Below the pieces are notes generated by a model, which searched no databases, was not told the origin of the DNA, and worked only from the letters and a program-made list of their open reading frames with translations. The position numbers were made by a program, and so were the translations under genes. From a virus, in the IMG/VR virus record IMGVR_UViG_3300046167_000586, positions 1-32,014 of that record: DNA of 32,014 nucleotides; one strand, written 5' to 3'. Shown piece after piece: positions 1,857 through 28,239 of the stretch; the stretch's first letter is position 1, and each line of letters opens with the position of its first letter.

Positions 1857-3641
1857 TTATTTCTTATAATTTGGATGATGTCCTTGGTTTGCCATATCTT
1901 TAGGTGCTTTTTTTGCATCTCTCCAACCTCTTGGTTTAGCTTTGTAAGTTTTTGGTATATCATTAACTTCTACAAAGTCTTTTATTTTATCTGATTTTTC
2001 TATGTATTTACCGTTTGTTTTTTTCTTTAATCTATAAAGTTGCTCACTCCAGTAATGTCCACAGCTTGGTCCTCCTTTAAATCTAAATAGATCATAAGCT
2101 TTACCTTTGTGTCCAAAAGATTTATTTACTCCTTTGTTAGATGCCGCATCAATATCTTCTATTCTATAAACCATATTTCTTTTCATTAGTGCTTTACAAA
2201 ACTCTCTTGAGTTTCCACTAGAATATTTTTCAGCATATTTATACCTGACTTTATAATAACTTTTATCTAATACAGAAAAGTCACCTTTACCCTTTTTTAA
2301 GTTTGGTATTGCCATTGCTATTTTTTGAAACAAAGTTTTCTTTTCTTCTATAAGATCGTTAGCCCAAGATTCAATATCTTTGTTTTTATCAGAATATTCT
2401 CTTTCGTCTACTAACTCCCATTCCTCGTCTATTTCTTCACCATTTAAGTTTTCTAATATATCTAATGCAACATCATCAGAAAGCTCATTAGAAGTGTCTG
2501 AAGACATTTTTACGCCTGTTTCTTGCTCTTGTGTTTCTTCATCTTCTATTTCTTCTACTTCTGTAAATTCTAAAGGTTGTAAAGTTTTAAAATATAAATG
2601 TAAAGAAATATCGTTAACGGCTAATATCTCATTAAAAGAGTCTATTAATAATTCTTGGTAGTTTTTAATAACTATATTATCAAATAATAAAGATGCAGTT
2701 TTTATTTCGTCTGCATTATTTCCTAAACCACTGTTACCGTCTTTTATACCTAATAATAAAGGTGAAGTAATTCTGTGTGATATAATTAATTTTTTTATAC
2801 ACTCATTTGATAAATACTCATAATGCTGTGGAGCATCATTCAACGGAATATCATCTACTGTTGTTTTGCTTTCTGCATTATTATTAAAAGCTACAATTAC
2901 TTTTTCACCTTGACTTCCTGTTAATTTATTTAAAACATCAGATTTAACCTGTAATTGTTTCTCTCTATCAGGAACTCCGTTGTTGAAATTTACTACTTTA
3001 GTTCCAGAGAAACCACATTGAACCTCATTTATTAAATAATCTGCTACTTCTTCCTCTAATTCAGCGTATGCTAATCCACCTTGATAGTCTACAGGAGCAT
3101 AATAATCATAGCCAGATACATATCTTTTAATAATTATTACTTCTGATGTTTTTTTATTACCAAAACCAAACGCAGGAATTCTCTCAGGTTGTTCTGAGGG
3201 CTTTATTTTACTCCAGTTATGATGATAATAATAAGCTTCAATTTCCCCTTTCTCGTTGCACTTTTCTGCTCTTAATGTTTGTCTTGGAAAATGTTCCGCT
3301 TTTATAACTTTTCCGTTTTTATAAATTATTTGCATACTTGCTTCACCCAATAATTTAAGATCTTGACAAGTTTTTCTAATATCTTTATTAGCAAATATAG
3401 AACGCATTTGTGCATATTCATCTGGTTTTCTATTAGAGTCTGAAGCATCTAATCCTTTTCCGTAAACCATGTTTACAACCCCATTTATGATTGCATTATT
3501 AGTAGCACTACCATTATATCTATCTATAATATATTGATAATAATTGTTATCTTCACCATAATTAATCCATTCTTTATTTTTATTTTCAACAATTACTGGT
3601 CTATTATAATTTGATAAGTTTAAAATATGTAAGTTTTCCAT
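1857..3641 (-). CDS. Portal protein with C-terminal extension (594 aa)
   Basis: The N-terminal part (about 1-380) shows portal features: WINYGEDNNYYQYIIDRYN at the start, the GVVNMVYGKGLD segment, and a helical core with HRITSPLLLGIKDG and GNNADEIKTASLLFDN. It would form the dodecameric DNA channel at one capsid vertex. An acidic linker (about 385-425) leads to an extra C-terminal domain, about 450-594, with EFCKALMKRNMVYRIEDIDAAS, CGHYW and a basic end. That domain is often attached to structural proteins of Bacteroidetes phages and is of unknown role. The start shares TAATG with the preceding gene. Portal is placed after capsid and tail tube in transcription order, which is unusual. Confidence 0.85.
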   Translation of the reverse strand: MENLHILNLSNYNRPVIVENKNKEWINYGEDNNYYQYIIDRYNGSATNNAIINGVVNMVYGKGLDASDSNRKPDEYAQMRSIFANKDIRKTCQDLKLLGEASMQIIYKNGKVIKAEHFPRQTLRAEKCNEKGEIEAYYYHHNWSKIKPSEQPERIPAFGFGNKKTSEVIIIKRYVSGYDYYAPVDYQGGLAYAELEEEVADYLINEVQCGFSGTKVVNFNNGVPDREKQLQVKSDVLNKLTGSQGEKVIVAFNNNAESKTTVDDIPLNDAPQHYEYLSNECIKKLIISHRITSPLLLGIKDGNSGLGNNADEIKTASLLFDNIVIKNYQELLIDSFNEILAVNDISLHLYFKTLQPLEFTEVEEIEDEETQEQETGVKMSSDTSNELSDDVALDILENLNGEEIDEEWELVDEREYSDKNKDIESWANDLIEEKKTLFQKIAMAIPNLKKGKGDFSVLDKSYYKVRYKYAEKYSSGNSREFCKALMKRNMVYRIEDIDAASNKGVNKSFGHKGKAYDLFRFKGGPSCGHYWSEQLYRLKKKTNGKYIEKSDKIKDFVEVNDIPKTYKAKPRGWRDAKKAPKDMANQGHHPNYKK

Positions 3642-11232: not shown

Positions 11233-11490
11233 TCAAAAGGGAGATAGTTTAAGTTCTATAGTAGAGTCCTTTTTTACTCTTGCATCAAATCCATCTACTA
11301 TATCATAATTATAATAGTGTTCAAATACCTTGTTATTTCCTTTAGATGCAGGAAGTGAGAAGGTCTTAGTAAAGTTAGTAAATACCTTAGCTATGTCTTT
11401 TACATTCTGAATAGTTTGAGTTAGAGATACTGACTCATCTTTAAACATATCCATTCTATTTCCCTCAATATATAATTGAATATTCTGCAT
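11233..11490 (-). CDS. Large tail protein, 5' part (85 aa before frame break)
   Basis: MQNIQLYIEGNRMDMFKDES, then the SVSLTQTIQNVKDIAKVFTN and FTKTFSLPASKGNNKVFEHY segments, looks like the N-terminus of a large tail protein and not a complete one. It ends ...LSPF at a TGA inside CCC TTT TGA AAA. Re-reading the Phe codon one base later (TTT GAA AAA GGT AAA) joins it in frame to the 9414-11201 ORF. Its ATG shares TAATG with the upstream gene. It is either the 5' part of a +1-frameshifted gene, a true split gene, or the result of a one-base error. Confidence 0.7.
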   Translation of the reverse strand: MQNIQLYIEGNRMDMFKDESVSLTQTIQNVKDIAKVFTNFTKTFSLPASKGNNKVFEHYYNYDIVDGFDARVKKDSTIELKLSPF

Positions 11491-12851
11491 TATCTAATGT
11501 CATTTATTTTATTAAACGCATACTCGAAATCTACTGTGTAATTTATGAGCTTGTCATTTACTGATTTCTTAAATTGTAAACTCTTAGTGTTTAAAGTGAT
11601 TGGGAGAACCTCTGTGCCATTATCTACCCACACTTGTTCACTTAGCATCATTTGTTTTATAACCTCGTTAAAACTCTCTTGTATGAAGCCTGTATTCATT
11701 GTTATGGATTCCTTACCAGTAACGTGAAACTGTCTTATTTGATGTTTCTCTGTATTGTATGTAGGGTCAGTAGCAAACTCCATTAGGTTTCTTTTATAAC
11801 TATCTGAATTTGTGTTTATACTATCTACTGATTTTTTATAGAAAGGCATAATCTGTAATGCTCCAAACTTATTATAGAATATAACTTGTAATTCTTGATA
11901 TTTAGGTTCACAAACTGCTTCTAATGTAATTGTTGTTACTTGTGAAGTACCTACTGAGCTTGTTATAGTAATTGTATCTCCTGTTATTAAAGTATCTGTA
12001 GGAGTTACTCTAATATAGACTATCTTTTTAGTTGAGTCTGTTGAGTCGTTTACTTGTATATCATTTAAAGTGCTTCCCCAACTTACATCATATAAATTCC
12101 AGAAATCCTCTACTTCTTCCCAAAATACATCAGCTCCTCCTCCTGTTGTAAATTCTATTAATGGTTCTACTTCTGCAAATACAGGAAATACTATATCAGT
12201 ACCTTGCTTAAAATATATCTTAGTATTTGATTGTAGATATTGTGGAGTATAGTTAGGAGTTCCTACTATTCTATAATCTTCTCCTGTAGCAATTATATCA
12301 TTCTTTATAGAAAGTTGTGTGTTACTATCTATAGCTGTTATTGTTGTTTCTGTTGTATCTGTATCGTTGTATACTGTATCTCCTATTGCTACACTTGTTA
12401 AGAATGTTTGTGTACTATCTATTAGTTTGTAAGCTGTAGTCGTACCTGTAGTTGTTGAATCTACTAAAGTATTTACAGGGTCTATTAAAGTTCTTGGATT
12501 TACTCCATCTTCAAAATATCCATAACCATCAAAAGAAAGGTAATCTAAGTTTTGAGTTTCACTTCCTACTGTTTTAGTTAATGTAATATCTGCTTCTACC
12601 CATACTCCATCTGTAGCAAAACTTGCATACTCTGTGTTTAGATAATCTCTAATAAGCTCTGTGATCTCATATATAACATAATTGTTAGAACCTATAATAT
12701 CTTTGCTTATAGTGTATTGTGGACTTCCAGGTTTGTCTGTTGTAAAAGTTCCTGAATATATAAATAGTTGCATTGATGCAGAACTAAGAGTTCCTGATGC
12801 TGGTTCTACTTTTATATAATAGGGACTTCTTGCGTTTATTATTGTACTCAT
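11490..12851 (-). CDS. Tail structural protein (453 aa)
   Basis: Beta-rich protein beginning MSTIINARSPYYIKVEPASG, with ITELIRDYLNTEY early, a low-complexity middle rich in T/D/S (SVAIGDTVYNDTDTTETTIT, about 155-175), and a conserved-looking C-terminal half (EPKYQELQVIFYNKFGALQI, MPFYKKSVDS, FIQESFNEVIKQMMLSEQVW). The start forms ATGA with the upstream gp10-like gene and the stop forms TAATG with the next tail gene, so it is in a tightly coupled tail operon. This type of protein regularly accompanies tape-measure genes in Bacteroidetes phages. It is probably a tail-tip or baseplate component; no enzymatic motif is visible. Confidence 0.6.
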   Translation of the reverse strand: MSTIINARSPYYIKVEPASGTLSSASMQLFIYSGTFTTDKPGSPQYTISKDIIGSNNYVIYEITELIRDYLNTEYASFATDGVWVEADITLTKTVGSETQNLDYLSFDGYGYFEDGVNPRTLIDPVNTLVDSTTTGTTTAYKLIDSTQTFLTSVAIGDTVYNDTDTTETTITAIDSNTQLSIKNDIIATGEDYRIVGTPNYTPQYLQSNTKIYFKQGTDIVFPVFAEVEPLIEFTTGGGADVFWEEVEDFWNLYDVSWGSTLNDIQVNDSTDSTKKIVYIRVTPTDTLITGDTITITSSVGTSQVTTITLEAVCEPKYQELQVIFYNKFGALQIMPFYKKSVDSINTNSDSYKRNLMEFATDPTYNTEKHQIRQFHVTGKESITMNTGFIQESFNEVIKQMMLSEQVWVDNGTEVLPITLNTKSLQFKKSVNDKLINYTVDFEYAFNKINDIR

Positions 12852-13381
12852 TGTCTTGTATCAATTGTTATATTAATAAGGTCTTTTGCAAATGCTTCAC
12901 CTAATTCACTTGGCAATCTAGTAAAAGCTTTTTTAAATGGTTTTGTAAAGAAAAAACTAGGTTTTATACCTTGCGCAAATATAAATTTCTGTAATACAAA
13001 TCCAATAGACCTATAATTACCTTTTGCAAATCTTCCTTTTTTATCTCTTAATCTAAAGTTTCTAGCTTTAGCCCATTGCTCTATGAATTTTTGTGGTGGT
13101 TTTTTATTAGTATACTTAAAAGGACTATTAGGCGCTTTTTGTTTCCCATTCTTAACCAAACTAGGGTTTGCACCTTTTACACCTTGATCTATAAAATCCC
13201 CATACTGATCCATAAATATATCTAAATATAAGCCATCTTGTTTTTGATCTACTTTATATTTTAATGATTCATATAAGTTATTTGTATTATTTTTCTTTTG
13301 CTTAGTCAAGTTTGTACGTGCTTGTTGTATTACATACTTAGCAAATTTATTAAGTTCCTCTTTTGTTTGTTTAAAATCCAT
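12848..13381 (-). CDS. HK97 gp10-like head-tail/tail completion protein (177 aa)
   Basis: The ATG at 13381 overlaps the upstream TAA (TAATG) and gives MDFKQTKEELNKFAKYVIQQ. A start at 13432 would overlap the previous gene by 52 bases and is less likely. The protein has an N-terminal helix, strands around LYDIF-type residues, an FIDQGVKGANPSLVKNGKQ loop, basic RDKKGRFAKGNYRS, and an IKPSFFFTKPFKKAF end. This is the usual plan of gp10/neck-type proteins, with a C-terminal F..P(A/F) helix. It probably sits at the head-tail joint or tail end. Confidence comes from pattern and position next to a terminator-like gene. Confidence 0.6.
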   Translation of the reverse strand: MDFKQTKEELNKFAKYVIQQARTNLTKQKKNNTNNLYESLKYKVDQKQDGLYLDIFMDQYGDFIDQGVKGANPSLVKNGKQKAPNSPFKYTNKKPPQKFIEQWAKARNFRLRDKKGRFAKGNYRSIGFVLQKFIFAQGIKPSFFFTKPFKKAFTRLPSELGEAFAKDLINITIDTRQ

Positions 13382-13836
13382 TAGCAAATAGTCATGTCGT
13401 TTTGTATTATTATATCGAATGTAGCAGTCCAACCAGCTAATTTGTTCTCAAATCTATCTACAAAAGGTTCACAAGAAACATCTCCTTGTAATTGATATAA
13501 TTCACTATATAAATCACCTCTTTTAAGTAGACTAGTCAACCTAGCGGCAACTCCTAGTTGTGTATTTAATACGTCTTGTTCATTATCATTACCCATAAAC
13601 TTAGTAGTTTCTTCTTTTTTACTTTCATCTACAATATCCATAAATAATATGCTCATACTAAAAGTAATTGTTTTGTCGTTTATTGTACTATTATTTACAA
13701 TTAAATGTGATAATGGGAAAATGTTTTGTTTGTTTAAGTCAACATCGTCTATATTACCGTATGTAATTGTATTTACAAAAGGTTCTAGTTCTAATGTTTC
13801 TTTTATTTTTGTTGTTATATTATAAAATCCTGTCAT
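13381..13836 (-). CDS. Tail terminator-like protein (151 aa)
   Basis: MTGFYNITTKIKETLELEPF starts an alpha/beta protein with KQNIFPLSHLIVNN, FSMSILFMDIVDESKKEE, LTSLLKRGDLYSELYQLQGD, and a CEPFVDRFENKLAGWTATFD ending. These segments are strongly reminiscent of a protein family found before gp10-like genes in Bacteroidetes phages, in the position of the tail terminator that caps the tube. The start lies in ATGA overlap with the stop of the -1 frame of the tail-chaperone gene. No catalytic signature is expected or seen. The role is inferred from neighbours. Confidence 0.55.
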   Translation of the reverse strand: MTGFYNITTKIKETLELEPFVNTITYGNIDDVDLNKQNIFPLSHLIVNNSTINDKTITFSMSILFMDIVDESKKEETTKFMGNDNEQDVLNTQLGVAARLTSLLKRGDLYSELYQLQGDVSCEPFVDRFENKLAGWTATFDIIIQNDMTIC

Positions 13837-14086
13837 TTTTTAAATTTTGATTTTATTCTTTTTGATTCTAATTCTAATTTATCTTTTTCAAATGCTAAAT
13901 ACATTAAACATTCATGTAAGTTAATATTGGTGACTTCGTTAAATCTTGTAATGTCTCCTCTACTAATTCCATATACAGATTGATACCAGCCCCATTTCCT
14001 AGCAAAGTTTGATTCAATTGAATATTGTCCTTCTGACTCTGTAAAGATTTCAGGATATTTACCGACAAGTCCTTGCTTAAACTGTA
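13833..14086 (-). CDS. -1 frame extension of tail assembly chaperone (84 residues)
   Basis: After the T9 run a -1 shift gives LQFKQGLVGKYPEIFTESEG, then QYSIESNFARKWGWYQSVYG, ISRGDITRFNEVTNINLHEC and LMYLAFEKDKLELESKRIKS, ending KFKK. This is a well-formed domain with the KWGWYQS(V/I)YG and NLHECLxYLxFEK pattern known in Bacteroidetes phages. It ends TGA at 13835-13833 inside the next gene's ATG (ATGA). The fusion product would be 244 residues (160 shared + 84). From 14086 to 13904 both this frame and frame 0 are open. It corresponds to the gpGT-type long chaperone. Confidence 0.75.
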
Positions 14087-14566
14087 AAAAAAAATAATGG
14101 TTGACATAACTAAAGATAAAGGCATTTTTTTCATATTACTATTTATGCCTTTGTATTCTTCTATTAAATACTTATCTTTGTCTTTATATGTAATTGGTCT
14201 AAATAAAACAGACATTGCTTTATCCATTGTGTTCCAATCACTAAAGTAATTATCTAAGTCTATGTATTCTCCAAATGTCATCTCATCTAGTTTAGGTATA
14301 AAACCATAATGAACGCCATTTAAAACAAATGATCTTTTAAACTTAGATTTTTTTTTAAATAAATTATCTATGTGTTGTAGTACTTTATTAAGACTAGTAT
14401 ACTTTATTTTTACAATTTCTTTTAAGTCTATATTGCAAAATATTTCTACCATCTTTTGGTTTATAAAGTTACTACTTTCTTTACCATCAGATATTTTGTG
14501 GAATTTTTGGTATTGCTCTAAAGTTATATCATCTAAAGAGCTAGGTACGTATATATCTAACTTCAT
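13904..14566 (-). CDS. Tail assembly chaperone-like protein, frame-0 product (220 aa)
   Basis: Begins MKLDIYVPSSLDDITLEQYQ, a helical adaptor-like N-terminus, with LNGVHYGFIPKLDEMTFGEY and MDKAMSVLFRPITYKDKDKY in the middle. This layout is common for the short chaperone that keeps the tape measure soluble during tail assembly. Residues 1-160 are shared with a longer product made by -1 frameshifting at the U UUU UUU site 14087-14093. Residues 161-220 (YSLSKDLSVNILKSLQSQKD...) are unique to frame 0. The dual-frame arrangement parallels the G/GT genes of lambda-like phages. It sits upstream of terminator, gp10-like and tape-measure genes. Confidence 0.65.
   Translation of the reverse strand: MKLDIYVPSSLDDITLEQYQKFHKISDGKESSNFINQKMVEIFCNIDLKEIVKIKYTSLNKVLQHIDNLFKKKSKFKRSFVLNGVHYGFIPKLDEMTFGEYIDLDNYFSDWNTMDKAMSVLFRPITYKDKDKYLIEEYKGINSNMKKMPLSLVMSTIIFFYSLSKDLSVNILKSLQSQKDNIQLNQTLLGNGAGINLYMELVEETLQDLTKSPILTYMNV
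14087..14093 (-). promoter_or_regulatory. Slippery heptamer U UUU UUU for -1 frameshift
   Basis: In frame 0 the codons are ATT TTT TTT TAC AGT. The heptamer T TTT TTT fits X XXY YYZ exactly, and after one base of backward slip the next codons are TTA CAG TTT AAG CAA. The run is nine T long (14086-14094). I see only weak pairing downstream (AGGA/TCCT), so no stimulatory hairpin is claimed. Confidence 0.7.
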
Positions 14567-14834: not shown

Positions 14835-14866
14835 TTCTTTAGAAGAACTATCAGTCTACAAACTCA

Positions 14867-17194: not shown

Positions 17195-17399
17195 TTTTGT
17201 TTCTTATTAATTTAGTTATTTTTATTAATTCTCTCATTTCTATTTCTTGTATTGCTTTGTGTATACCTGCACATTGCTCATACATCTCTGTATCTTCATA
17301 AAGTTTCAATATTTTTTTTAAACTCGAAAGTGGTGTTCCTTTTCTATAATCGTGAATAGACATGAGATAATATTCTTCTTTAATATTTTTCTCATTCAC
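17169..17399 (-). CDS. Hypothetical helical protein (76 aa)
   Basis: MNEKNIKEEYYLMSIHDYRK, then GTPLSSLKKILKLYEDTEMY, EQCAGIHKAIQEIEMRELIK: a charged, mostly helical protein. A later start (MSIHDYRKGT) would also fit. Its ATG overlaps the exonuclease stop (ATGA). It lies between the exonuclease and the DnaA-like gene in the early operon. Not recognised as a named family. Probably a small adaptor. Confidence 0.45.
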   Translation of the reverse strand: MNEKNIKEEYYLMSIHDYRKGTPLSSLKKILKLYEDTEMYEQCAGIHKAIQEIEMRELIKITKLIRNKNGRSNNEI

Positions 17400-18037
17400 A
17401 AAGTTCCTTTTATTATATATTCGTTTAATTCATACTTTTTTTTTACAAAATACTGTTCAAATACTTTTAAGCCGTATTCTACTTTATCTTTACCTGACAA
17501 ATAAAACTCTTCACTAACATTATAATGTCCTAGATCTCCAGTTGATTTATCTATTACAAAAAAGAAAAAGTTTTCATAACTAACTTTAAATAATTCACAA
17601 TAAATATATACTTGTACATCATAACCATATTTTTTAGCTGACCAAGGAAAAGCTTTTAAATCTGAAGTTGTTTTAAGATCTGCAACATAATCAGATCCTA
17701 ATATATCAGCTTTAGCTCTAAAAGGATAACCTTGTAAAATATCAAAACCAGGTACTTCAAACTTAGCACCTCTTGTTAATTCTTGCCATATATCATTTTG
17801 TAGTAAAGCATCTACAGTATACATAGCTTTATCATATTCTCTTCTCGTATAAACAAATTGATCACTACCCACTTCTTTGACTTTGTCTTTATATGCTTTT
17901 GTTACTGCTGATTTTACCTCTACTATGTGACATAATGAATCTAGTTTTTCTGGTTCTAATGCGGCTAGATGTATTAATCTACCGGTCTTAAAGGCTTTAC
18001 TATCTGATTTAAAATTTAAAGATCTAGCATAACTTTT
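17396..18037 (-). CDS. PD-(D/E)XK (RecE-like) exonuclease, catalytic part; frame-broken at its 5' end
   Basis: The open frame runs from the break at 18037 and reads KSYARSLNFKSDSKAFKTGR, LIHLAALEPEKLDSL, before the first ATG at 17872. The SP-KSY and GRLIHLAALEPE segments are the conserved N-terminal helices of PDDEXK exodeoxyribonuclease VIII-like proteins. The active site is in FRAKADILG (Asp) and VADLKTT (Asp-x-Lys); a following helix has YDVQVYIYCELF. It would degrade one strand of dsDNA to feed the ERF annealing protein. Its missing N-terminus is in the ORF at 18036-18422; a +1 shift joins them into about 341 residues. Confidence 0.8.
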   Translation of the reverse strand, partial: KSYARSLNFKSDSKAFKTGRLIHLAALEPEKLDSLCHIVEVKSAVTKAYKDKVKEVGSDQFVYTRREYDKAMYTVDALLQNDIWQELTRGAKFEVPGFDILQGYPFRAKADILGSDYVADLKTTSDLKAFPWSAKKYGYDVQVYIYCELFKVSYENFFFFVIDKSTGDLGHYNVSEEFYLSGKDKVEYGLKVFEQYFVKKKYELNEYIIKGTL

Positions 18038-18422
18038 AGGGAGAATCTATTAATGATTTTATAGCTGAAGAACTTAACGCATATTTACCAAGCTCACCGT
18101 AATAAAAAGAATCATTATACATTTTTTCTAGCAACTTGTCTTTATCATATATATCACCGTTTAATAATTGTATTTTCTCTTTTCTTTTGCTTTTAGTATA
18201 TATACTTTTTAATTCATTAACTGTAATGTAACAAGTATCATCACCATGAAAAGAACCGTTTAAACTAATATGTAAAGCATGAAGTTCATCTTTTGTTTTA
18301 AACTGAAATACTTCATCTTTTACTCTTACTTCAACACCATCTTGTGCCCAATCCATAAAACCTATTTTAGGTGTCATGAAAGTTATATGTTTCCATGTTG
18401 ATTTTTTAGTTACTATTTTCAT
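18036..18422 (-). CDS. Exonuclease 5' part with extra N-terminal region (128 aa before frame break)
   Basis: The last 29 residues (MYNDSFYYGELGKYALSSSA, IKSLIDSP) are the typical beginning of a flavophage PDDEXK exonuclease, and they stop at TCT CCC TAA AAG just where homologues continue KSY. Reading on in +1 (CCC, skip T, AAA AGT TAT) restores the protein in the next ORF. Residues 1-95 (MKIVTKKSTWKHITFMTPKI...) are a separate small domain not usual for the exonuclease. Either the exonuclease has an N-terminal regulatory domain, or the true exonuclease start is the internal Met100. One base separates it from the upstream MazG-like gene. Confidence 0.65.
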   Translation of the reverse strand: MKIVTKKSTWKHITFMTPKIGFMDWAQDGVEVRVKDEVFQFKTKDELHALHISLNGSFHGDDTCYITVNELKSIYTKSKRKEKIQLLNGDIYDKDKLLEKMYNDSFYYGELGKYALSSSAIKSLIDSP

Positions 18423-18726: not shown

Positions 18727-19357
18727 CGTTTTTATTTAAAAAATTATTATATATATGTAGATTATTTGCAAAATGATAGTAATTACCAATGCCAACATTT
18801 AATTCTTTACAGACTAATTCTTGTAATTTACTAAAACAATATTGATCATTACAAAATCCATACCACAAATCATTAGATCTCATTAATACCGACATATTTA
18901 ACTTATCATTTATTATAGTAAAGTTTATAGCATAAGTACATGGGGTATCTTTAGAGTATGTTTCTATTTCTTTACCGTCGTAAATAGATATAGAAGCTTG
19001 TCTTGTATTTTTATTTTTACTTAAGATATTTATTATTTTTTTTAATTGATCATTTCTTTTCCATTGCCAACCGTAATTTGACCTAACCTCTTTGTTTTCG
19101 TCCATCATAGTATTCCAAATAGGTGCATGTTTAGATATTTCTTCTGCATTTGGATTTCCTGACAAATACCAATTCCATTCTCTTTTAGCATATTTTTTTG
19201 AAAAATTTCTCCATTTAGTTTTTATGTTGTTTTCTAATGGATTTAAAATATTAAAACCTATATTGAATAATGCTTTAGTATTATCAAAATCAATTCCCTT
19301 TTTTGATATTAGATTATAATAAAATTCAAATGCTTCTTGTGCGTTATTAAATACCAT
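18713..19357 (-). CDS. Deoxypyrimidine (dCMP/dUMP) hydroxymethylase, T4 gp42-like (214 aa)
   Basis: Thymidylate-synthase superfamily. Glu60 lies in EWNWYLSG, SNYGW at 93-97, TRQ at 118-120, nucleophile Cys140 in DTPCTYAINF, phosphate-binding Arg160-Ser161 in MRSND, and HIY at 201-203. The key part MRSNDLWYGFCNDQY resembles T4 gp42 (MRSNDVVFGFRNDYA as I recall it) and not ThyA (RSxDxxLGxPFN). Asp171 stands where T4 Asp179 selects cytosine and ThyA has Asn. It should add CH2OH to a dNMP using methylene-THF. It starts 11 bases inside the PLP gene. dCMP is my first guess; dUMP cannot be excluded. Confidence 0.8.
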   Translation of the reverse strand: MVFNNAQEAFEFYYNLISKKGIDFDNTKALFNIGFNILNPLENNIKTKWRNFSKKYAKREWNWYLSGNPNAEEISKHAPIWNTMMDENKEVRSNYGWQWKRNDQLKKIINILSKNKNTRQASISIYDGKEIETYSKDTPCTYAINFTIINDKLNMSVLMRSNDLWYGFCNDQYCFSKLQELVCKELNVGIGNYYHFANNLHIYNNFLNKNDETK

Positions 19358-20249
19358 ATTTATTAAAATCTCTTAAATCGTTCCAGTCTCTATACGAATT
19401 TACTAATTTTTTTTTAATGTTTGGTTTTTTAGCATTACCAGCTACAGAAAAAAACCAATCTCCGCTTTGACCATATTTGTTTAAATAATCCCAACCTTTA
19501 GAATCATAAGAGTCTTCACAGTTAAATTCTTTTGGTATTAAATCTGATTTACTATTAAATGGTTTATGATAAGAATAAAAATCAGCTACACCTAATTCTC
19601 CTTGTTGTATGTTTCTAGCCACGGCAACTGCCTTAAAATTAGTTTCAGGTAAAGCTATTTGCATTGTTCTAGTTAAAACACCTGTAGATATTACTGACCA
19701 CATTGTTTCTGGTTTTTGTTTATTTTTAAAAAACTCATAAAAACATTTAACACCACCTGCAATAACTAAAGGGTGATTTAAACCTAAAGGAACAAAAAAA
19801 GCATTTGTTTTTTCTGCATATAATTTAGCTAATCTATTTGCATTAGGCATAGCTGCTATTCTTACAAATAAAGGTTTAGCACCTAGTTCTATACACAATG
19901 CTTGATGATCACTAACTTCTTTTGAAGAAGGCATAACTAAAGTTAGATTAATATTATATTTATTACATAACCAAGATAAACTTATACCAGCAAAACCTCT
20001 TCTTGGTTGAACATATACTATTTCTTTAATGTTTTGTTCCGCTAGTTGTTTTATAAAAAATTCACCAGATCTAGCTTTATAACCTACTTCGCAACTTAAA
20101 GACTCATCTATTACATTAAATCCATTTACTTTTTTTATAACAAAATCATCAAAAGAAGATTTAAAGTTTTTAGTTAAGTTTAAATAATAATCTAAACTTT
20201 TATTTTTTAGATCATTGTTTTCTTTATTTTTCTGCTTATTTAAGAACAT
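19347..20249 (-). CDS. PLP-dependent enzyme, fold-type II lyase-like (300 aa)
   Basis: The pattern GYKARSGEFFIKQLAEQ (56-72) with candidate Schiff-base Lys58 resembles the KxRG-type site of cysteine-synthase/threonine-dehydratase enzymes. YVQPRRGFAGISLSWLCNKY and LVMPSSKEVSDHQALCIELG match the small-domain Rossmann-like part, and VISTGVLTRTMQIAL is a plausible PLP-phosphate loop. It likely acts on an amino acid or an amino-acid adduct. Immediate neighbours are a DNA transferase-like gene (upstream, 14-base overlap) and the hydroxymethylase (downstream). PLP enzymes of this sort are known in phage thymine hypermodification clusters, where they tailor an amino acid after it is attached to DNA. 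Confidence 0.7.
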   Translation of the reverse strand: MFLNKQKNKENNDLKNKSLDYYLNLTKNFKSSFDDFVIKKVNGFNVIDESLSCEVGYKARSGEFFIKQLAEQNIKEIVYVQPRRGFAGISLSWLCNKYNINLTLVMPSSKEVSDHQALCIELGAKPLFVRIAAMPNANRLAKLYAEKTNAFFVPLGLNHPLVIAGGVKCFYEFFKNKQKPETMWSVISTGVLTRTMQIALPETNFKAVAVARNIQQGELGVADFYSYHKPFNSKSDLIPKEFNCEDSYDSKGWDYLNKYGQSGDWFFSVAGNAKKPNIKKKLVNSYRDWNDLRDFNKYGI

Positions 20250-21141
20250 TATTATAATATTTTATACCGTTGTTTTTTTCTATATGATGTTTGCTCTGAA
20301 AATTTTCTATATATCTAATAAAGTCACAAGCAACATCTTCCATATCATAAGGCTTTGAATGACCCCCTGTAATGTCACAGAGATAACGTAAAGCATCGTT
20401 TGTTTTTTTATTAGGTAATATCATCTTTAAACATTTTCTAGCGTTAGAACCTACGTAAACATCACTATCTCTATCGACTAAACTAGGATAATATTCTGCC
20501 ATATCCATAGAAAAAGCAGTTAATACAAAGTTTTGTCTTTTATAACCTTTGTTAATTAACCAATTATTACCGTAGTCAACAACATCTTTAATACCTTTTA
20601 TACCAGGTTTTTTAATATAGTTTATTAAATTAATCATTAATTCTTTACTTTCGTTCTGTATGAAATTATATAATCCACCTTTTATCATAGGCAACAAATA
20701 TCCTTTTACATCACAAAATTTTTTCTCAGGCATAATATTAATCCAGTTATCACTATCGACTAAGCCTTCTTTTAATTCGTTAACAATCCAAAAATTACCA
20801 AAACCATGAGTTCCAAAAGGAGAATCACAATCTCTTTTAGGTATGTAATTAATTCCTGAACCACATAGTCTAAACAAATAACACATTTTAATAAAATCAA
20901 TATCTTTAATTTTATTTCTACTAATATTAAAATAAATACTATTATTTTTTGGATCTTCTTTTGCTTTTATTGCTTCTAACAAACTACTAAATGCTGCAAA
21001 CCTTCTATTAACAACATCATATATAGGTATATTCCAAACTAAATCATCATTAACATCTTGTTCTTTCCAATTAAATCCTTGGAATTTAAGTTGTTGCATT
21101 TTGTGTGCTTTATTATAATAGTCCTTAAATTGTTCTAACAT
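20236..21141 (-). CDS. Amino acid:DNA transferase-like protein (aGPT-Pplase/ADDT type, 301 aa)
   Basis: Helical protein with the features I associate with amino acid:DNA transferases: LFRLCGSGINY (89-99), THGFGNFWIVNEL (111-123), KGYLLP (146-151), a GIKGIKDVVDYGNNWLINKGY helix-turn region, KRQNFVLTAF (201-210), NARKCLKMI (233-241) and DFIRYI (273-278). In characterised phages such proteins replace the pyrophosphate on 5-hydroxymethyluracil DNA with an amino acid. The call rests on recalled motifs, and no structure search was possible. Overlaps with the PLP gene (14 bases) and the SGNH-like gene (7 bases) indicate a single pathway. Alternative: an unrelated HhH/DNA-glycosylase-fold protein. 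Confidence 0.55.
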   Translation of the reverse strand: MLEQFKDYYNKAHKMQQLKFQGFNWKEQDVNDDLVWNIPIYDVVNRRFAAFSSLLEAIKAKEDPKNNSIYFNISRNKIKDIDFIKMCYLFRLCGSGINYIPKRDCDSPFGTHGFGNFWIVNELKEGLVDSDNWINIMPEKKFCDVKGYLLPMIKGGLYNFIQNESKELMINLINYIKKPGIKGIKDVVDYGNNWLINKGYKRQNFVLTAFSMDMAEYYPSLVDRDSDVYVGSNARKCLKMILPNKKTNDALRYLCDITGGHSKPYDMEDVACDFIRYIENFQSKHHIEKNNGIKYYNNVLK

Positions 21142-22052
21142 AATTTTTTTATAAATTTATAAGACTTTGGTCTTAAATGAACAGATTGCCTTGATTCCAT
21201 TTCATCAAAAGAAAGACCTTTATCATAATTAAAATCCCAATCTATTAAGTTATAATTATAGTGATTACAACCTCTTTTTAATAAACTATTAAATTCTTTT
21301 ACATAATAAGTTCTTTGTTCTTTAGTACCATAGAAAGGTTTCCCTTTATATAAACCTGTACCAGGTATTTTTCTAGACTCATCTTCTATAGGTAACAAAG
21401 AAACTAATGTTATTTTATCTAAATTTAACTTAGTTAATTGTAAAAATAATTCTCTAATTAAATCTACTACAGCTTTTCTTCCGCCGAATCTATGTATGTG
21501 AAATCTAACATCTATATTTCCTGCATAAAAAATTAAATTATTAGTGTCTTTATTAATAAAGTTCTGTAATCCTATTTTTAAAAAACCATTCAACGTCTTA
21601 CCATCTATTCTATTTATAGAATATCCTGGTTTATAAATAGAAACACTATGACTATCTCCTAATATTAGTTTATTATTATATTCTTTAGTATATAAAACTT
21701 CTGGTGATTTATTACAACTTAAGCCTTTTAATTCTTTTCTCTTATTGCAAGCTACATTGTAATCTATTTTTTCATTTATGCAATATACCTTTCCATTAAA
21801 ATTATTTAACTTGTTAAGTCTTGTATAAAAAGAATCTTGAACTCCTCCAAAAAAATTAAACTTGCCTTCTTTATAATTAACGCCTTCGGAAAGTATTAAT
21901 TCTTCATAATCATTCCAATCATCTTTTTCAGTTAATATGTCTGCATTATAAATATTTTTTAGAACCAATGTCCAGCCTCCGTTGTGACTATTTAAACTTC
22001 TCACAGGATTACTTACTACCCCTACTATTGCTTTTTTATTTTTCATTCTCAA
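21135..22052 (-). CDS. SGNH/GDSL-like hydrolase or transferase (305 aa)
   Basis: Residues 130-136 read ILGDSHS, giving the SGNH block I nucleophile Ser134. FYAGNIDVRFH (175-185) can serve as the block III G-x-N/D region. SVHLRPKSYKF (290-300) places a candidate catalytic His292 near the C-terminus. The N-terminal 125 residues (KNKKAIVGVVSNPVRSLNSH onward) are not a standard part of the fold. SGNH enzymes cleave or transfer acyl groups. Start overlap with the upstream gene (17 bases) and stop overlap with the DNA transferase-like gene tie it to the modification cluster. Start may be Met3 at 22046. Substrate unknown. Confidence 0.6.
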   Translation of the reverse strand: MRMKNKKAIVGVVSNPVRSLNSHNGGWTLVLKNIYNADILTEKDDWNDYEELILSEGVNYKEGKFNFFGGVQDSFYTRLNKLNNFNGKVYCINEKIDYNVACNKRKELKGLSCNKSPEVLYTKEYNNKLILGDSHSVSIYKPGYSINRIDGKTLNGFLKIGLQNFINKDTNNLIFYAGNIDVRFHIHRFGGRKAVVDLIRELFLQLTKLNLDKITLVSLLPIEDESRKIPGTGLYKGKPFYGTKEQRTYYVKEFNSLLKRGCNHYNYNLIDWDFNYDKGLSFDEMESRQSVHLRPKSYKFIKKLC

Positions 22053-26249: not shown

Positions 26250-26256
26250 ATATTTA

Positions 26257-26270
26257 ATATTAGCTAATAT
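26257..26270. promoter_or_regulatory. 14-bp perfect palindrome upstream of NinG
   Basis: ATATTAGCTAATAT ends 8 bases before the NinG start. It could be an operator. Chance occurrence in AT-rich DNA is possible. Confidence 0.3.
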
Positions 26271-26435
26271 ATTATTTTTTATTTATAATAAAAGAAAAGA
26301 AAAAGAAAAAGGACAAAAAGAAAAAGAAAAGAAAAAGCCAACAAAAAGAAAAGAAAATTAATTACCTGTTCCAAGCACCGTCCAACTTTATTAGGTTGTG
26401 CAAGTTTAGCTATAAGCAAAAACAAATATATAAAA
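26271..26435. other. Intergenic region with homopurine tract
   Basis: This 165-base gap has no ORF. Bases 26290-26358 on the plus strand are almost entirely A and G (AAAAGAAAAGA-type repeats, about five interruptions). The next 45 bases (26370-26412) are less AT-rich (ccaagcaccgtccaac...ggttgtgcaag) with short CAAC/GTTG and GCA/TGC pairing. It is the longest noncoding stretch in the genome, next to NinG. An origin, a structured RNA leader or a transcription pause element are possible; none can be proven here. Confidence 0.5.
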
Positions 26436-26558
26436 TTATTTTAATATATATTTTTTGTACTTTACAGCAGAAATAACTACTGCAATAATAAAAATAATTG
26501 TAAAAATGTTTAGATGTGTTTCTCCACAGAATCCTAATAAGTGCTTTAATGTTTCCAT
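26436..26558 (-). CDS. Small membrane protein (40 aa)
   Basis: ATG at 26558 to TAA at 26438-26436 encodes METLKHLLGFCGETHLNIFT, IIFIIAVVISAVKYKKYILK. One transmembrane helix spans about residues 17-33, followed by a basic cytoplasmic end. METLKHLLGFCGE-type peptides occur in lysis regions of flavobacterial phages. It begins one base after the preceding small basic gene ends. It may be a lysis accessory or antiholin; role inferred from location only. Confidence 0.6.
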   Translation of the reverse strand: METLKHLLGFCGETHLNIFTIIFIIAVVISAVKYKKYILK

Positions 26559-28055: not shown

Positions 28056-28239
28056 AGTTCTGAACATCTCTAGGTTGGTCTTTTAGGTAACTAAACTTAA
28101 CAGTAGCTCCTGTAATATCACTTAAATCGTAATTATTCTTTTTATTCCATTCTGCATTTATTTGCAGAACTGTTACGTCTTGACTATATACAGAGACCGC
28201 AACCAATACACATATCGCACATAATATTAATTTTTTCAT
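28054..28239 (-). CDS. Exported thioredoxin-like protein, 5' part (61 aa before frame break)
   Basis: MKKLILCAICVLVAVSVYSQ is a classic signal peptide with probable cleavage after YSQ or before. DVTVLQINAEWNKKNNYDLS, GATVKFSYLKDQPRDVQN follows: the strand-helix of a thioredoxin-like fold with NAEWN in place of the CxxC. The usual next part (VPVIVIMDK...) is in the adjacent frame at 27897-28055. As in other flavophages the family likely has no redox cysteines, so a structural or stress role in the periplasm is possible. It overlaps the upstream gene by ATGA. Confidence 0.6.
   Translation of the reverse strand: MKKLILCAICVLVAVSVYSQDVTVLQINAEWNKKNNYDLSDITGATVKFSYLKDQPRDVQN

Follow-up and report, generated by a model that had tools for sequence, protein, structure and literature searches.

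Does the break in the exonuclease gene of a metagenome-assembled phage genome mark a site of programmed frameshifting, a recent mutation or a fault in the recorded sequence? The genome is the complete IMG/VR entry IMGVR_UViG_3300046167_000586, whose 32,014 nt were analysed as a whole and are termed the window here. The gene lies on the minus strand, which reads TTA ATA GAT TCT CCC TAA AAG TTA TGC across the break, with TCT CCC TAA at positions 18044-18036, the CCC codon at 18041-18039 and the TAA stop at 18038-18036. A single uninterrupted exonuclease frame is absent from the record, as this stop interrupts it. The 5′ open reading frame has the C-terminal end ALSSSAIKSLIDSP, and the continuation in the +1 frame reads (K)SYARSLNFKSD...KGTL. 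The preliminary description had the gene broken at CCC TAA with the rest in the +1 frame, and the minus-strand sequence and the open reading frames bear this out (Table 1).

By its sequence matches, the gene encodes an ordinary phage exonuclease of the RecE-like type (DUF3799/PDDEXK), and its real product is predicted to be one protein of ~341 amino acids. The nearest relative, L002 (IMGVR_UViG_3300031839_000258), encodes both parts as one 341-amino-acid protein. This unbroken protein matches PF12684 DUF3799 (1.3e-19, residues 117-323), PHROG 412 exonuclease VIII (2.4e-26) and the solved chain 3h4r, exodeoxyribonuclease 8 (0.00057). The 3′ part of the window gene, taken alone, gives profile matches to PF12684 (3.7e-18) and PHROG 412 (3.4e-22). 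The 5′ part matches nothing in the annotated phage collection; it shows 84-99% identity to the N-terminal part of the single ~341-amino-acid protein of near relatives. The break comes after residue 128 and the domain match of the L002 protein begins at residue 117, which puts the break close to the beginning of the nuclease domain, in agreement with the original description.

Table 1. Positions in the window of the two exonuclease parts, the extra base and the breaks in other genes
Feature	Position	Strand	Description
Exonuclease, 5′ part	18036..18422	-	128 aa, then TAA; start 18422; ends LIDSP
Exonuclease, 3′ part	17396..18034	-	+1 frame; 212 aa and stop at 17396; DUF3799/exonuclease VIII-like nuclease domain
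Site with one extra base relative to all relatives	18036..18042	-	C/T pair 18039/18038 or, equivalently, T/C pair 18042/18041
Second break, tail gene	11252..11253	-	Gene 11490-9414 split into 85 aa and 595 aa; 691 aa in relatives
Third break, small gene	14853..14854	-	Start 14886, stop after 11 codons; remainder is ORF 14834-14607
Fourth break, thioredoxin-like protein	28056..28057	-	Gene 28239-27897 split at AAC TAA

Comparison with related viruses indicates that the broken form is confined to this record. None of the ~100 relatives aligned over the exonuclease region has the extra base or the stop, and all of the near-relative HSPs that cover the site (26/26) have one base fewer. The two parts share one frame in every one of the 170 related loci matched by both parts, some of which overlap on the same contig, and a frame change is found in none (0/170). 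The unbroken junction, 26 nt long, is present in five IMG/VR contigs. The 27-nt broken junction was found in no other IMG/VR contig, in a search from which records very near the window's own were possibly left out. Relatives were also sought in bacterial and archaeal genomes, and none were found there.

The nearest relative has 98.5% DNA identity. L002 carries the same protein, with 99% identity upstream of the break and 100% downstream of it, in a neighbourhood that is the same over 5.4 kb (96.5% DNA identity), but it differs in having one base fewer at the site and a single 341-amino-acid frame. Over the 384 nt before the break, the window and L002 are separated by two substitutions, one of them silent. 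Over the 636 nt after the break there are 14, of which 14 are silent and none changes an amino acid. Because the substitutions beyond the break are all silent, the full-length exonuclease must have been under selection until very recently. Nothing in these sequences suggests that the 3′ part is a separately evolving or rarely made product. A reading in which the 3′ part is translated on its own was rejected: the open reading frame listed in its frame begins at GTG 17872 (158 amino acids) and would lack the first portion of the nuclease domain, and two open reading frames at this place are found in no relative.

The exonuclease gene is not the only gene of the record to be split. A survey of insertions and deletions between the window and its near relatives detected three more isolated one-base additions within genes, each without a counterpart in the relatives that cover it. 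In the tail gene, listed as open reading frames 11490-11233 and 11201-9414, both parts lie in one frame in 77 of 77 relative loci. In L002 the small gene is open over 94 codons, and one base fewer is seen in 15 of the 15 near-relative HSPs that cover its break. The fourth site is covered by a single relative, L117, which has one frame of 112 amino acids; the gene product is named thioredoxin-like from its sequence, and its first part, of 61 amino acids, has no PHROG match. Thus in this one record the same kind of change, absent from all covering relatives, is repeated at unrelated sites, with four breaks in total.

Because no relative has the extra base and three other genes are likewise split, the most likely explanation of the exonuclease break, and one to be held with considerable confidence on these comparisons, is a one-base consensus or assembly error in a metagenome-assembled record. 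Consensus indel errors do occur in metagenome assemblies, and the record resembles such cases in having several isolated one-base breaks that relatives lack. The first description had allowed that the site might be a single inserted base, and this reservation gains support both from the relatives, which lack the base, and from the equivalent extra bases in three other genes.

The four sites also share a form. On the minus strand they read GAA[CT]TAAAC (tail gene), GTAGA[CT]GATAG (small gene), TCTCC[CT]AAAAG (exonuclease) and AA[CT]AAAATT (thioredoxin-like protein), and at each of them the encoded residue is the same whether only C or only T is kept (Leu, Asp, Pro and Asn, respectively). Random one-base insertions in these genes display this property 21% of the time, and four of four would be expected by chance in ~0.2% of cases, a figure that serves only as a guide as the pattern was noticed after looking. 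Relatives carry both alternatives at two sites, with 13 TTA and 2 CTA in the tail gene and 10 GAT and 7 GAC in the small gene. The exonuclease proline codon, tallied in 134 matches, is CCT in 95, CCA in 37, CCG in 2 and CCC in none. An equivalent position for the extra base is the preceding serine codon, however, where near relatives have TCT and TCC. Both alternative bases are therefore found among relatives at three of the four sites, when the neighbouring serine is counted for the exonuclease.

These features suggest a possible origin of the error. Reads from co-existing strains would differ by a silent C/T transition at the site, and the assembler or a contig-merging step would keep both bases in the consensus, so that one base is added. 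This might come about through an expanded ambiguity or through a mismatch aligned as two gap columns, and the same process would have affected the three other genes of the record. Retention of the two alleles at a silent C/T difference is the most economical account of the four sites. A literature search on such a mechanism found nothing specific. In the exonuclease and the tail gene, the extra base can alternatively be seen as the lengthening of a homopolymer. A plain homopolymer miscall would explain these two breaks (CC to CCC in the exonuclease, AA to AAA in the tail gene) but leave those of the small gene and the thioredoxin-like gene unexplained, and as it fits only two sites, the C/T pair covers more. 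That every one of the four breaks is readable as a silent C/T pair speaks for strain polymorphism and not for errors of homopolymer length alone. A strictly alphabetical expansion of A-G, read on the plus strand, agrees with the four sites as well; it is not claimed, as the placement of the extra base is not unique in the exonuclease and tail genes.

The alternative that survives best, although it is unlikely, is that the breaks are real and very recent frameshift mutations. The exonuclease would then be cut to 128 amino acids without a catalytic domain and would be non-functional. The deposited sequence does contain the extra base, a phage may be able to do without a recombination exonuclease, and mutations that add one base next to a CC run are common. 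Against this, four separate genes, a conserved tail gene among them, would need to have been broken at once. There is also no other sign of decay, given the entirely silent changes beyond the exonuclease break relative to L002, and the identical variant occurs in no other contig.

Programmed +1 ribosomal frameshifting at CCC TAA is very unlikely. The preliminary description had proposed that tRNA-Pro re-pairs from CCC to CCT before a slow stop, which would yield the full-length exonuclease, as at the sites of Listeria phage PSA. In the Listeria phages PSA, A118 and A500, the +1 site of the tsh gene is CCC_UGA, and that of PSA cps is at CCC UCC (PMC5009743). The break in the window resembles the tail-gene site CCC_UGA (PMC5009743) in that a CCC proline codon is followed by a stop with a continuation, here of 212 amino acids, in the +1 frame; the resemblance extends only to that. 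CCC is moreover rare in this phage: among the 161 proline codons of 25 intact genes, it occurs twice. The Listeria sites, however, are in structural genes, where recoding yields an additional product, and the three phages have the tail-gene site in common, whereas the site here is in a nuclease gene, has a UAA stop and is absent from all relatives.

Other evidence runs against re-pairing at this codon. The frame change is not conserved among related genes, even at 98.5% DNA identity, where both parts are in one frame, and CCC never occurs at the corresponding proline in the 134 matches. A stimulatory RNA structure, which accompanies only some +1 sites, is not apparent, as the RNA downstream of the exonuclease break shows no unusual structure (fold z = -0.40). 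The three other breaks are not at CCC, and each would need a different recoding site. Recoding is very unlikely because it would require four unrelated new sites in one record, with none in its kin, and the proposed re-pairing is not upheld. A codon ending in C is followed by a stop at three of the four breaks (CCC TAA, GAC TGA and AAC TAA). Less probable still, on the comparison with relatives, is that the population truly has four +1-broken genes that are rescued by frequent +1 frameshifting in the host.

With an assembly or consensus error as the preferred reading, the locus is of minor biological importance: it would be an ordinary phage exonuclease gene, which is whole in all relatives. 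The case does call for caution: where a break in a metagenome-assembled virus resembles a recoding site, the sequence should be compared with near relatives and the remainder of the record inspected for similar breaks. An added base that is readable as part of a silent C/T (A/G) pair may expose a consensus error that stems from a mixture of strains.

Frame breaks are few elsewhere among the relatives. A scan of 1,822 gene-locus pairs flagged others only in L252, L186 and possibly L234. Those at L252:7205-7215 and L186:3700-3710 are isolated and affect homologues of window genes 1857-3641 and 21135-22052; they look like missing rather than extra bases. The same scan also lists many stops inside matches. 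Stops within the matches of the distant exonuclease copies in L036 and L195 were rejected as gene breaks, as each precedes the copy's own later natural start and reflects a shorter N-terminus. Most of the remaining stops are common to whole groups in two genes (12848-13402 and 13904-14566) and seem to reflect natural variation in where genes end.

The N-terminal stretch of the exonuclease seems to be a separate module, fused to the nuclease in part of the exonuclease family. The copies at L036:1118-1891 and L195:1126-1935 begin ~80 residues later.

Two further features of the window were observed. Near the exonuclease gene of this small phage is a metabolic-looking gene (19347-20249) similar to PHROG 7093 threonine dehydratase. 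An A-rich intergenic stretch with AAAAG-type repeats (26250-26460) varies in length among relatives, with a 52-base difference in some.
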